From NCBI GenBank assembly GCA_027084135.1, contig JALWLO010000075.1:1-47208 (forward strand): a stretch of DNA of 47,208 nt. The letters are read 5' to 3'. Every line of letters starts with the position of its first letter. Position 1 is the first letter of the stretch. Under the pieces are notes generated by a model. The model was not told the DNA's origin. It saw only the letters and a list, made by a program, of their open reading frames with translations, and did no database searches. Made by a program: the position numbers and the translations under genes. The DNA is from Campylobacterales bacterium. Lineage in GTDB: Bacteria; Campylobacterota; Campylobacteria; Campylobacterales; QNZT01. This document shows positions 29,883 to 35,262 of the stretch, in pieces.

Positions 29883-31988
29883 GTGAGGAACGAGATGGGA
29901 GAGCATGATTTAAATGATCCTTCACTTTATACCAACCGGGAGCTATCATGGTTAAAATTTAACTCAAGGGTATTGGCGCAAGCCCAAAAAGAGTCAAATC
30001 CTCTACTAGAAAAGTTAAAGTTTATCGCGATCTATTCAACCAATCTTGATGAGTTCTATATGATTAGAGTAGCCGGTCTAAAACAACTCTATTCAGCTAG
30101 AGTAACAACGAGCGGACCCGATATGATGACACCCCTTGAGCAACTCCAAGCGATAACCGACTATCTGCATAAAGAGAAAACCGTCCTGCAAAAAAGCTAT
30201 AAAGACATTATCAAAAGATTAAAATCCCACAATCTCTTTATCAAAGATTACAGCAGTTTGAGTGACGATATCAAAGCCAAAGCCGATGAGTTCTTCTATG
30301 AAAATATCTTTCCGGTTATCATCCCGATCGCAGTTGATGCCACTCACCCCTTTCCACCGCTTAACAATCTCTCTCTATCCCTTGCCGTAGTACTAGCTGA
30401 CGGCGATGAGAAGAAGTTTGCGATGATTAGGATTCCAAGGCTTCTTCCTAGATTTGTTCAAATTTCCAATGGACTTTATATACCGATAGAGACGATTGTC
30501 AGAGAGCATATCGATAAGATATTCCCGGGATTTGAAGTGGTCTCTTCCGCTACATTTAGGGTAACGAGAAACGCCGATATCGTCATCGAAGAGGAGGAGG
30601 CTGATGATTTTATGGAGATCCTGGAACAGGGGCTTAGAAGAAGAAAAAAGGGGGCATTTGTAAGACTTGAAATCGACTCTAACGCTTCGGAAGAGTTGAT
30701 CGATTTTCTCAATTCACACCTCAGAGTCTATCAAGAGGATATCTTTAAGTATGATATCCCCCTCAATCTCGGAGCGCTATGGGATATCGTCTCAAATAAA
30801 AACTTCTCCCATCTGCTTCTTCCGAGAAATGTACCTAAACTCTTGGCACCGTTTGATAAAAATGAGTCGATATTTAAGATCATAGATCGTGAAGATAGTA
30901 TGATACTTCTACCATATGAGAGTTTTGAACCAGTCGTAAAATTTATCCAAGAGGCGGCAAAAGATCCCAAAGTCCTCTCTATCCGTATAACACTCTACAG
31001 GATCGGAAAAAACTCTCCTATTGTCCAAGCGCTCATCGATGCTTCAAATAGCGGAAAGCAGGTTACAGCTATGGTGGAGCTAAAAGCCCGATTTGATGAG
31101 GAGAATAACCTCATCTGGGCAAAAGCGCTAGAGGATGCGGGTGCACATGTGATCTACGGCATCCCCGGCTTTAAAGTGCATGCCAAGATCGCTCAAGTCA
31201 TCAGAAAAAGTAACGATAAACTCAAGGTATATCAACACTTCTCCACCGGTAACTACAATGAAGCTACCGCTAAAATATATACCGATGTGGGATACTTTAC
31301 CTCTAGAGAGGAGTTACGGGCTGATAGTATCACCTTTTTCCATATCTTGACCGGCTTTTCAAAAAATAAGAAACTCAATAACCTCAAAATGAGTCCGTTT
31401 CAGATCAAAGATACGATACTAATGATGATTAAAAATGAGGCAAAAAGGGGTAGAGAGGGGCGCATCATAGCAAAGATGAACTCCCTGGTAGATAAAGATA
31501 TCATCAAAGCACTCTATCGTGCCAGCTGTGACGGGGTTCAAATCGATCTGATCATCAGAGGGATATGCTGTCTAAAGCCCGGTATCAAAGGTGTGAGTGA
31601 AAATATCAGAGTGATCTCTATCGTCGGTAAATATCTGGAGCACTCAAGGATATTCTATTTTAAACACTCCTCACCGTCGATCTATATCTCGAGTGCGGAC
31701 TGGATGCCTAGAAACTTGGAGAAGAGATTTGAGTTGATGGTACCGATCTATGATGAAGATATCAGTGATAAGCTAAAAGATCTTCTGCTCTTGCAACTCA
31801 AAGACAATCTGCTCGCTTGGGATTTACAGAGTGACGGAGAGTATCTATTAAGAACTCCTAAAGAGGGAGAGGAGCCGCTTGACTCTCAAGCCTATCTCGA
31901 AAACTATATCAATAAAATTTTCAAAAAAAATCGAAAATCGCTACAGAACCAAACACTTTCAAATAAAGATAAAAGGATGCTTAAATGA
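29883..31988 (+). CDS. ppk: Polyphosphate kinase 1
   Basis: Makes long-chain polyphosphate from ATP. About 701 aa. N-domain [20 protein letters not shown], head domain [12 protein letters not shown]-type sequence ([16 protein letters not shown]), and the catalytic PLD-like core with KVHAKIAQV (phosphorylated His region), [20 protein letters not shown] and later [18 protein letters not shown]. The start is placed at GTG 29883 because AAGGAGG stands 8 nt before it; the ATG used by the track is upstream of the promoter's likely transcript. Its TGA overlaps the next gene's ATG. Confidence 0.96.
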
Positions 31989-32509
31989 TATATGATTATA
32001 TGGGGATGAAGCCAAAGATCGGTGAGAAGGTATTTGTTGCCAAGAGTGCCGACATCATAGGCGATGTGGAGATCGGTGAAGATAGTTCTATATGGTTTGG
32101 CACAGTTGTTAGAGGCGATGTACACTCCATCAAAATAGGGAAAAGAGTTAGCATACAAGATCTAAGTATGGTTCATGTAACGCACTTTAAAGGAGATGAC
32201 AGGAGTACCGGCAACCCTACTATCATAGAGGATGATGTTACCGTGGGTCACAGGGTTATGCTCCATGGATGTACGATAAAAAAAGCGTGCTTGATAGGGA
32301 TGAGTGCCACGATTTTAGATGGAGCGGTTATCGGTGAAGAGTCTATCGTAGGAGCGGGAGCACTTGTGACAAAAAATAAAGTTTTTCCTCCAAGAAGCCT
32401 CATTTTAGGCTCTCCGGCAAAAGTCGTAAGAGAGTTGACTGATGATGAAGTCAAAGAGTTATACGCCTCAGCGAGTCGATATGTCAAATTTAAAAATAAT
32501 TATCTTTGA
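31985..32509 (+). CDS. Gamma carbonic anhydrase-like hexapeptide-repeat protein
   Basis: 174-aa left-handed beta-helix protein ([20 protein letters not shown] repeats). Zinc-ligand histidines of gamma carbonic anhydrases are present: H67 in VHVTH, and H89 and H94 in GHRVMLHG, with RGD at 43-45. It could hydrate CO2, or be a YrdA/PaaY-type protein with weak or other activity; sequence alone does not decide. It is coupled to ppk by an ATGA overlap. Confidence 0.9.
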
Positions 32510-32649: not shown

Positions 32650-34119
32650 ATGGCAAGAGTTGTCGTAATGGGTGGTGGTGTTTCCGGGCATACCGCTGCA
32701 ACATTTGCAAAAGAGTGGCTTGGTGACGCTCATGAGGTTGTTGTGGTGACACCTAACAGTCAGTGGAACTGGATACCATCAAATATTTGGGTCGGTGTGG
32801 GTCAAATGACAAAAAAAGATGTTGTTTTTGACCTAGCTCCGGTTTATGCAAAAGCAGGAATAGACTATAGACAAGCAAAAGCAGTTTCTATACACCCGGA
32901 AGGTGGTAAAGATGAGGATAAGCCATATATCACTATAGAGTATACCGGTCAAGGTAAAGAGGGTCAAACTGACACGATCACCTACGACTACCTTGTAAAT
33001 GCTACGGGGCCTAAACTTAACTTCGATGCGACACCCGGTCTTGGAAACGGTCAAGGTCAAATCGGAGACTATACAGTTTCAGTATGTACCGCCGATCATG
33101 CCGTTCATGCAAATCAAAAACTTAGAGAGGTATTTCAAAAAGCAAAGAGCGAAAAACAGAAGATACTTGTAGGTACCGGGCACGGTATGTGCACTTGTCA
33201 AGGTGCCGCATTTGAGTATATCTTCAATATCGAGCATGAGGCTAGAAAAGCGGGTGTGAGAGACAATCTCGAGATAAAGTGGATATCCAATGAATCATTC
33301 TTGGGTGATTTTGGTATCGGTGGTCTTCACATCAAAAGAGGTATGTATGCGGCTAGCTCAAAACTCTTTGCAGAGTCACTCTTTGTTGAGAGGGGTGTTG
33401 ATTGGCTCATCGGTGCACATGTCAATAAAGTTGAAGAGGGTAAAATCGGATATGAGCTTCTAGACGGAACGATGGGTGAAGAGGAGTTTGACTTTGCTAT
33501 GCTTATCCCTCCATTTGCAGGTGTCGGACTCAAAGCCTATGACAAAAACGGCGAAGATATGACCGATGAACTCTTTGCACCAAACGGCTTCTTGAAAGTG
33601 GATGCGGATTACACTCCAAAACCTTATGAAGAGTGGAAAGCAAGCGATTGGCCTAGAACTTACCAAAGTCCAAAATATGACAACATCTTTGCTTGCGGTA
33701 TCGCATTTGCACCGCCACATCTCATCAGTAAACCGATGCAATCTCCAAACGGAACGCCGATAAACCCAACGCCTCCAAGAACAGGTATGCCTTCCGGAAT
33801 TATCGGTAAAACTGTTGCAAGATCGATTTGTGACAAGATATTAAAAGGTGATGATGCGCCACTGCATGAGGCATCTATGGCAGAGATGGGTGCAGCGTGT
33901 GTTGCAAGTGCAGGTAAAGGTTTAACTGACGGTACAGCCGCAGCTCTAACCGTATATCCGGTAGTTCCTGATTTCGAGAAATATCCGGGAATAGGAAGAG
34001 ATTTGGATTATACATTTGGTGAGATAGGTCTAGCTGGTCACTGGATAAAACATATCCTACACCACATGTTTATCTGGAAAGCGCAACTTAAACCGGGCTG
34101 GACACTGATCCCTGAATAA
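32650..34119 (+). CDS. sqr: Sulfide:quinone oxidoreductase family flavoprotein
   Basis: 489 aa, FAD-dependent oxidation of sulfide with electrons to the quinone pool at the inner face of the membrane. FAD site VVVMGGGVSGHTAA at the N-terminus; candidate redox cysteines C146 (VCTADH), C181/C183 (GMCTCQG) and C349 (FACGIAF); a second FAD-contacting block IFACGIAFAPPH; a C-terminal amphipathic stretch (HWIKHILHHMFIWKAQL) for membrane attachment. Longer than type I SQR (about 430), so it belongs to one of the longer subtypes; the subtype cannot be set without a tree. It is followed by two uncharacterised membrane genes. Confidence 0.9.
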   Translation: MARVVVMGGGVSGHTAATFAKEWLGDAHEVVVVTPNSQWNWIPSNIWVGVGQMTKKDVVFDLAPVYAKAGIDYRQAKAVSIHPEGGKDEDKPYITIEYTGQGKEGQTDTITYDYLVNATGPKLNFDATPGLGNGQGQIGDYTVSVCTADHAVHANQKLREVFQKAKSEKQKILVGTGHGMCTCQGAAFEYIFNIEHEARKAGVRDNLEIKWISNESFLGDFGIGGLHIKRGMYAASSKLFAESLFVERGVDWLIGAHVNKVEEGKIGYELLDGTMGEEEFDFAMLIPPFAGVGLKAYDKNGEDMTDELFAPNGFLKVDADYTPKPYEEWKASDWPRTYQSPKYDNIFACGIAFAPPHLISKPMQSPNGTPINPTPPRTGMPSGIIGKTVARSICDKILKGDDAPLHEASMAEMGAACVASAGKGLTDGTAAALTVYPVVPDFEKYPGIGRDLDYTFGEIGLAGHWIKHILHHMFIWKAQLKPGWTLIPE

Positions 34120-34147
34120 GAAAAATAAATTATAAAAGGAGATAAAT

Positions 34148-34321
34148 ATGGCAAGTGTTGATCACTCAATAGAGAAAAATATAAAAGCTTATGAGCCAAG
34201 TTTTGAGACGATGGTCCCTACTCCATTTGTAAAGTTTATGAGAACATGCGTTCTATGGCAAATCATAAGATTTATCATCATAAATATCAAAATGCTACTA
34301 GTAGTCAGAAAAAGCCACTAA
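34148..34321 (+). CDS. 57-aa SQR-linked membrane protein (missed by the ORF track)
   Basis: My translation: starts MASVDHSIEKNIKAYEP and ends IINIKMLLVVRKSH. Strong AAAGGAG at 34135-34141 stands 6 nt before the ATG, 28 bp after sqr. The N-terminal half is polar; residues 27-53 form a hydrophobic or amphipathic helix with scattered Lys/Arg, flanked by basic residues, so probable membrane association. I do not recognise the family. Position and ribosome site suggest a small subunit or anchor of SQR. A perfect 18-bp palindrome follows 7 bp after the stop. Confidence 0.75.
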   Translation: MASVDHSIEKNIKAYEPSFETMVPTPFVKFMRTCVLWQIIRFIIINIKMLLVVRKSH

Positions 34322-34328
34322 AGATCAA

Positions 34329-34346
34329 TAAGCGGGATATCCCGCT
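34329..34346. terminator. Perfect palindrome after the small SQR-linked gene
   Basis: AAGCGGGATATCCCGCTT, a 7-bp GC-rich stem with loop ATAT, not followed by a T-run. It may be a weak terminator, a 3' mRNA-stabilising hairpin, or an operator for the next gene. The 85 bp downstream contains another small inverted repeat (AACTACGATGATAGTT). Confidence 0.5.
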
Positions 34347-34431
34347 TGATATCTTCCGTAAACAAAACAAAATATTTAATGTAACTACGATGATAGTTGT
34401 GTTAACTATTTTGGCTTTAAGGTAAATATTT

Positions 34432-35262
34432 ATGGTAAAAGAGCTTGTTATCTATCCTGATGATAGGATCATGGCGTGTGGTGATGTGAGAGGATTTGAT
34501 GAGAGTGTCGGCAAACTCTTTGATGATATCATCGATACGATGAAAGCACATAACTTAACAGCACTAAGCGCTATACAAGTCGCTCACCCTTTCAATATGT
34601 TTGTCATAAAAAGAGGGGATAAATATCTTGAGTTTGCAAATCCTAGAATCCTCATCAAGGATAAAGAGTTTAAAGCACCGGAAAAGAGCTCCTACTATCC
34701 TACAGATATGAGTATTGTGGTACCACGATATGAAAAGCTCAAAATCGTTTATGAAGATAGATTTGGCAATACAAAGTACATGGATATCGACGGCGATAAA
34801 GAGTTTGCGGCAATATTTCAGCAGATGATGGACTTCTCTCTTGGTGGAACGATACTTGATAGAGTTGGAAAAAAAGAGAGAGAGGCATTTTTAGAGGCAC
34901 TTGAAAATGACGGAGTTATCCCTATGGCGGGTGAAGTTTGCCCGACATTTTCTAAAAAGGATTATTTTGTTTCCTTCGCTGACAAATTGCTATTTTTGAT
35001 GGGGCTATCACTCATGACTCCCCTATTTAACTTGAGTAAAGAGACACTATTGAGTATCTATACATTTGATAAATTTGTCTTCCCTACAGTATTACTTCTG
35101 ATGGTTGGGTTTTTCTTATACGCCTTTTATGAGTCAAAGAAATATAGACAATGTAGCAGCTGTCAGGTAGGTAACAATATCGGCGTCGTTGTCAAACGAA
35201 GTATTCTTGCTATCGCCCTAGCTATAGCAGCTTATTTTATCTTTGAAAAAGCGCTACAGTGA
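34432..35262 (+). CDS. Membrane-anchored peptide-deformylase-like protein without catalytic residues
   Basis: 276 aa. Residues 5-150 follow the deformylase fold order: YPDDRIMACGDV, DIIDTMKAHNLTALSAIQVA, EFANPRILIKD and a C-terminal helix. All three catalytic motifs are altered: GxGxAAxQ is LTALSAIQ, EGCLS is YPTDMS (no Cys) and QHExDH is QQMMDFS (no metal histidines). Residues 184-271 add three hydrophobic segments with a CSSC pair (241-244) between the second and third. Hence a predicted non-deformylase membrane protein; function unknown. AAGG precedes the ATG; it follows sqr and the 57-aa gene. Confidence 0.78.
   Translation: MVKELVIYPDDRIMACGDVRGFDESVGKLFDDIIDTMKAHNLTALSAIQVAHPFNMFVIKRGDKYLEFANPRILIKDKEFKAPEKSSYYPTDMSIVVPRYEKLKIVYEDRFGNTKYMDIDGDKEFAAIFQQMMDFSLGGTILDRVGKKEREAFLEALENDGVIPMAGEVCPTFSKKDYFVSFADKLLFLMGLSLMTPLFNLSKETLLSIYTFDKFVFPTVLLLMVGFFLYAFYESKKYRQCSSCQVGNNIGVVVKRSILAIALAIAAYFIFEKALQ

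Follow-up and report, generated by a model that had tools for sequence, protein, structure and literature searches.

Sulfide:quinone oxidoreductase (SQR) is a main route by which electrons from sulfide enter respiration and anoxygenic photosynthesis, at vents and in sulfidic waters and sediments. SQRs are described in the literature as single-chain monotopic enzymes, whereas the SQR considered here comes with a separately encoded small protein, S57. In most SQRs the C-terminus carries two amphipathic helices, and cutting off one or two C-terminal helices from the archaeal SqrC of Caldivirga results in an inactive, cytoplasmic protein (PMC9666304). Heterologous production of SQRs has also been remarked to be difficult (PMC9666304). 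The redox cysteines are common to types I and IV, which form one clade, and type IV is present in all sequenced Sulfurimonas (PMC4584964, a review).

The window, by which we mean the whole stretch of 47,208 nucleotides analyzed from a Campylobacterales bacterium, contains over positions 32650-35262 a run of three genes on the same (+) strand, sqr, S57, and PPDF, with no other gene between them in the sequence or among its open reading frames. The following features were located in this region.

32650..34119, + strand: sqr, sulfide:quinone oxidoreductase of 489 aa, with three redox cysteines and one C-terminal helix (residues 461-478); probably type IV (SqrD)
34136..34141, + strand: AAGGAG, ribosome binding site of S57, read from the sequence; a similar site precedes most homologues
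34148..34321, + strand: S57, a 57-aa basic amphipathic/membrane helix protein, with no Pfam, NCBIfam, or PHROGs family
34330..34347, + strand: hairpin AAGCGGGATATCCCGCTT, immediately 3′ of the S57 stop codon; hairpins are common here among homologues
34432..35262, + strand: PPDF, a membrane-anchored pseudo-deformylase of 276 aa (Pfam match, model, and alignment)
34438..34881, + strand: deformylase-like domain of PPDF (residues 3-150), in which the catalytic Cys, both His, and Glu are lost
34966..35244, + strand: three predicted membrane segments of PPDF (residues about 179-199, 213-233, and 253-271)
35152..35163, + strand: CSSC of PPDF (residues 241-244), in the loop that connects the second membrane segment to the third, with invariant C241 and C244

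This layout confirms what a first-pass annotation of the same DNA had observed, namely sqr, a small membrane protein, and a pseudo-deformylase in a row on one strand with nothing between, and a ribosome site ahead of the 57-aa gene. S57 starts 28 nt after sqr, and PPDF 110 nt after S57. The 3′ end of PPDF abuts exactly a convergent gene with an exonuclease domain (RNase_T), so that nothing further belongs to the module on that side. On the other side, a gamma carbonic anhydrase-like gene (31985-32509, identified by model matches) lies 140 nt upstream of sqr; a gene of this kind also directly precedes sqr in L068, L049, and L039, and the long gene in front of it (cluster 27) is common to the window, L068, and L049.

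The AlphaFold model of the window SQR (mean pLDDT 92; two rows from plasmid records were left out of the underlying alignment) displays the two-Rossmann FAD fold of the solved SQRs. Its top matches in the PDB are all SQRs (E about 1e-32), those of A. ferrooxidans and A. aeolicus being the best. Alignment with the A. aeolicus enzyme places the three redox cysteines known from solved SQRs at matching positions; among 38 sequences aligned to these cysteines, C146 is invariant, and C183 and C417 occur in at least 90%. The three-cysteine pattern, the likeness to type I, and the wide spread of this SQR in Campylobacterota, a phylum in which Sulfurimonas reportedly always has type IV, indicate that the enzyme is probably type IV (SqrD). 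Its sequence begins at once with the FAD motif, and no signal peptide is seen. At the other end, the model has a single C-terminal helix (residues 461-478) and the chain stops 11 residues later, at 489. Alignment with the A. aeolicus SQR extends through this helix, as far as residue 394 of the A. aeolicus chain, which runs on to 430, about 36 residues extra in the profile alignment. By model and alignment, a second C-terminal helix on the same chain is absent from the window SQR, and the same short ending was seen in the 17 family members listed of 135. The window genome has one other SQR-like gene (L156, G000:C1; about 390 aa), which is probably type VI/SqrF-like and is without S57 behind it.

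We surveyed 397 Campylobacterota genomes, sampled at one genome per species. A window-type SQR was found in 111 of these genomes, in 114 copies, and S57 lay directly downstream on the same strand of every copy (114/114), at a distance of 14-279 nt (median 49). In the same genomes, 114 of the 115 S57 copies adjoined SQR and 1 was located elsewhere. This single copy belongs to an S57-PPDF pair without sqr, beside a MerR regulator gene (L051:7303-8269; G303:C95). A scan across genomes starting from a purple sulfur bacterial SQR revealed S57 at 79 of the best 80 SQR loci, the sole S57-less locus being one where the contig ends 165 nt past sqr. These 80 loci span Chromatiaceae, Gallionellaceae, other Betaproteobacteria, Ghiorsea (Zetaproteobacteria), and many Campylobacterota; they also include one MAG contig each from Planctomycetota and Bdellovibrionales, possibly the result of binning errors. 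In the class of Lamprocystis, SQR and S57 occurred in the identical four of 185 sampled genomes. Their counts were equal in nine genomes further to this sample. For the 10 genomes reached via loci outside Campylobacterota, the tally is 12 versus 12 copies. The most divergent SQR found (43% identical; L175, G522:C255) is followed, about 80 nt downstream, by a 37-aa helix-only S57. As a separate observation, a 270-aa frame in Thiobaca trueperi (L179, G404:C8:65277-66083) fuses the N-terminal ~246 residues of a duplicated SQR in frame to the S57 helix, and looks like a deletion relic.

The genes flanking sqr-S57 vary widely: almost every family and phylum has different ones, as do the plasmids, while the pair persists. 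On two plasmids, one from Thiodictyon, with IS91 and integrase genes nearby, the other from the rhodobacterial alphaproteobacterium Marivivens, sqr-S57 occurs as an isolated unit in which S57 is annotated as "hypothetical protein." Because the flanking genes differ so widely, the pairing does not come from shared synteny. A merely inherited local gene order would agree with the upstream gamma carbonic anhydrase gene, which is also common to the window's genus and family f9, but it is contradicted both by a pair that stays while its flanks change and by the presence of PPDF, which switches about nine times on the SQR tree and always within it. We consider this explanation largely refuted for S57 and give it almost no weight. 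Chance does not account for the three-gene arrangement either, since S57 stands behind 114/114 SQR copies and PPDF was found in no surveyed genome without a window-type SQR. We conclude with high confidence that S57 is a dedicated partner of the window-type SQR clade.

S57 is strongly conserved. Among 133 sequences, R32 and Q38 are invariant and position 48 is always K or R (133/133 in each case), P24 is found in 132/133, R41 and F42 in about 97%, and N46 in 126/133, while position 34 is Cys in 97/133 and Ser in most others. Across these sequences the helix is essentially without acidic residues. Since Q38, R41, K48, and K55 form a polar-basic stripe on one helix face and the remainder is hydrophobic, an in-plane or partner-packed membrane helix would fit better than a simple transmembrane span, judging from the sequences. 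Peak hydrophobicity was 2.07 in the window copy and 0.76-0.98 in 3 of 4 diverse relatives tested, the low values (<1) belonging to copies of purple sulfur and iron bacteria. The initial description of S57 as a membrane protein needs one correction: a basic-striped amphipathic/membrane helix, with conserved R, Q, N, and K inside, describes it better than a plain transmembrane span. In two genomes (G074 and G238), second, divergent SQR copies with divergent S57 are present (L066:5930-7564 and L069:6167-7792), and in these S57 copies the conserved R41/N46 pattern is lost and the tails are longer.

The dN/dS of S57 was mostly well below 0.2 and about 0.01-0.1 in informative pairs (ten pairs; the values of two made no sense, probably owing to misaligned ends, and another two were without dS or ignored). 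By this measure S57 is under strong purifying selection, and the low dN/dS together with the conservation across 133 sequences rules out a chance ORF. No described family in Pfam, NCBIfam, or PHROGs matched S57. Two candidate relationships were rejected: FeoB-associated Cys-rich membrane protein (PF12669), which one of 12 members hit at 15.8-19.1 bits, below the cut-off of 27, and a detached relative of the tail of solved SQRs, as the profile search gave no sequence relation to any of them.

We consider it probable that S57 is a stable subunit of SQR. In the proposed mechanism, the SQR flavoprotein would oxidize sulfide via FAD and its three cysteines, as predicted, and the basic amphipathic helix of S57 would pack beside the lone C-terminal helix of SQR. 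The second membrane helix, which in other SQRs is part of the same chain, would thereby come from S57 in trans, contributing to membrane seating and to formation of the quinone channel. What we infer here is that S57 physically binds SQR, replaces the helix, and takes part in quinone access; anchoring by S57 gains indirect support from an SQR with a single C-terminal membrane helix. That S57 replaces the missing C-terminal helix in trans is proposed more tentatively, at somewhat less than even confidence. Type VI SQRs also have one C-terminal helix only and the SqrF-like gene of the window genome is without S57, indicating that a short C-terminus alone needs no S57. The lack of a sequence relation between the S57 profile and the tails of solved SQRs likewise counts against the subunit model.

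Two other roles for S57 were weighed against that of a stable subunit. S57 could be an assembly, insertion, or translocation helper that takes the signal-less SQR to the correct membrane side; such a helper would show the identical 1:1 linkage to SQR, and both the start of SQR at the FAD motif with no signal peptide and the basic, interfacial character of S57 would suit it. We rate this as unlikely, since the near-invariant helix face and the short SQR C-terminus better fit a permanent structural role. The conserved polar stripe and the common Cys34 could alternatively point to a small regulator of SQR, such as a sulfide- or redox-dependent inhibitor or a gate of the quinone channel. However, S57 accompanies the enzyme always, even in its most divergent and mobile copies, regulators are usually more easily lost, and Cys34 is dispensable; a regulatory role appears improbable.

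The third gene encodes a protein with the fold of a deformylase but not its active site. PPDF matches Pfam Pep_deformylase (4.9e-20, residues 3-150), and residues 1-165 of its model (pLDDT 91.9) give a TM-score to target of about 0.87 against the H. pylori and E. coli deformylases. Among 67 aligned homologues, the cysteine of EGCLS is replaced by T, S, D, or N in all 67; in QHExDHLxG the Glu and second His are absent from 67/67 and the first His from 65/67. The structural residues E84, R99, Q130, D134, and G138 are kept. A working deformylase was rejected on the loss of metal ligands and catalytic residues in these homologues (67), and a true deformylase with intact motifs is encoded elsewhere in the window genome (L002). 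In 64/67 homologues the C-terminal part contains three hydrophobic segments; it also has a near-invariant C170-P171 and a CxxC (C241 and C244) that is invariant in 67/67. The early characterization of this gene product as a three-helix membrane protein with a degenerate deformylase domain and a CSSC pair is borne out. From the charge distribution, the deformylase-like domain and the CxxC loop would both be on the cytoplasmic side. The C-terminal domain was also considered as a stand-alone family and rejected, being seen in 200 genomes only when fused to the deformylase-like part, the exception being a 26-residue fragment at a contig end. Annotation pipelines label PPDF as "peptide deformylase"; on a plasmid of Sulfurovum mangrovi (L072:5868-6683) an in-frame stop splits PPDF, which is annotated as two such genes.

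The linkage of PPDF to SQR is of a different kind from that of S57. PPDF was found in 79 of the 397 Campylobacterota genomes, all 79 with a window-type SQR, and in 0 of the 286 sampled genomes without one, but it was absent from 32 of the 111 SQR genomes. Of 88 matched copies, 72 are directly after S57 and 16 are not (two of these being partial copies at contig ends); PPDF is non-adjacent in 8 genomes, and there are extra copies elsewhere. Outside Campylobacterota, PPDF was not found on plasmids or at SQR loci. The first-pass annotation had proposed a possible module around sqr, for which conserved order beside sqr in other genomes would be the test. This test is strongly positive for S57 in several phyla (114/114; 79 of the best 80), and the idea of a conserved module holds in its observation and its prediction, but the module resolves into two tiers, an obligate S57 and a Campylobacterota-only add-on, PPDF. 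S57, not PPDF, is the essential part of the sulfide-oxidation module.

A hairpin follows the S57 stop at 48 of 92 loci, mostly from Campylobacterota (p ≤ 0.05), with the stem kept and the sequence differing, and it is probably the 3′ end, an attenuator, or a stability element of the sqr-S57 message. The commonness of a strong hairpin just after the S57 stop suggests that sqr-S57 would be the main message, with PPDF read through at a lower level. Together with the S57-PPDF gap, usually 40-130 nt (0-10 nt in a few genomes), the frequent hairpin argues against tight co-expression of PPDF. Within the window's own gap, a terminator was rejected because the hairpin is real but has no T-run on the + strand, and a promoter was rejected because matches were no better than in shuffles.

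Solo PPDF copies at L043, L044, L054, L055, and L058 have in common a neighboring MerR regulator and an AhpD-like protein (motif ENGCKMCVDVHK, CxxC...H), and two of these neighborhoods also contain a DsrE-like protein that seems to have a signal peptide; this could possibly be a second thiol/sulfur system. Other solo copies have unrelated neighbors, for example rpoN, pirin, Ysc84, or DUF4332 genes. The extra copies with AhpD-like and DsrE genes, which have thiol or sulfur functions, suggest handling of thiols or sulfane sulfur by PPDF. As the third, looser gene in many Campylobacterota, PPDF may partner SQR in handling thiols or persulfides (sulfane sulfur), or serve as an assembly or quality factor for it; this is speculative, and our confidence in it is well short of even. 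Persulfide handling, if it occurs, would take place through the CSSC. PPDF could instead be unrelated to SQR and have its own function in the cell, such as binding to ribosomes or nascent chains by the deformylase fold, a reading to which we also give limited credence. It would account for the 32 SQR genomes lacking PPDF, the 8 in which it is non-adjacent, the solo copies near rpoN, pirin, Ysc84, or DUF4332 genes, and the hairpin commonly placed between S57 and PPDF. It is at odds with the lack of PPDF in all 286 sampled Campylobacterota genomes without a window-type SQR, with the 72/88 copies that adjoin S57 in varied contexts, and with the lone S57-PPDF pair in G303 (L051).

Overall, the explanation towards which we lean is that the products of sqr and S57 form a two-subunit sulfide:quinone oxidoreductase, with PPDF as a looser third partner. 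The fullest version, in which a major SQR class is two-subunit with an overlooked membrane subunit of ~55 residues and Campylobacterota have in addition recruited a dead deformylase with an invariant CxxC as a thiol/persulfide relay between SQR and the cytoplasm, is unlikely to hold jointly. Literature searches of open-licence papers found no published description of S57 or PPDF. If this SQR clade needs S57, single-gene expression would give a partial enzyme, which would offer a testable cause for the difficult production of SQRs in foreign hosts. A true S57 role would also account for access to the quinone pool by a monotopic SQR whose C-terminus is short. In PPDF, the fold of a housekeeping enzyme has clearly been recruited for a membrane pseudoenzyme beside a sulfur-oxidation gene.

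Compared with known systems, PPDF shares with peptide deformylase the fold of residues 1-165 and differs in its replaced metal and catalytic positions and in having gained three membrane segments and a CxxC. S57 resembles small subunits of respiratory enzymes (subunit IIa of B-type oxidases, CcoM), which are likewise tiny conserved membrane helices, overlooked in annotation and tied to one enzyme, although it has no known sequence relation to them and belongs with another enzyme class. A further parallel is the YjlC-YjlD pair of Bacillus subtilis, where YjlD is a type II NADH dehydrogenase. There a flavoprotein of the same superfamily is modelled with a dedicated small partner (PDB 9a63, itself a match of the SQR model), but S57 is much shorter and helix-only, and having no Pfam match it belongs to no Pfam partner family. 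The closest comparison is with the type I and IV SQRs (SqrA of A. aeolicus and A. ferrooxidans; SqrD), with which the window SQR shares the fold (TM-score to target 0.81-0.89), the FAD motif, and three redox cysteines at matching positions, and from which it is set apart by its lone C-terminal helix and by an obligate small partner protein encoded in a gene of its own.
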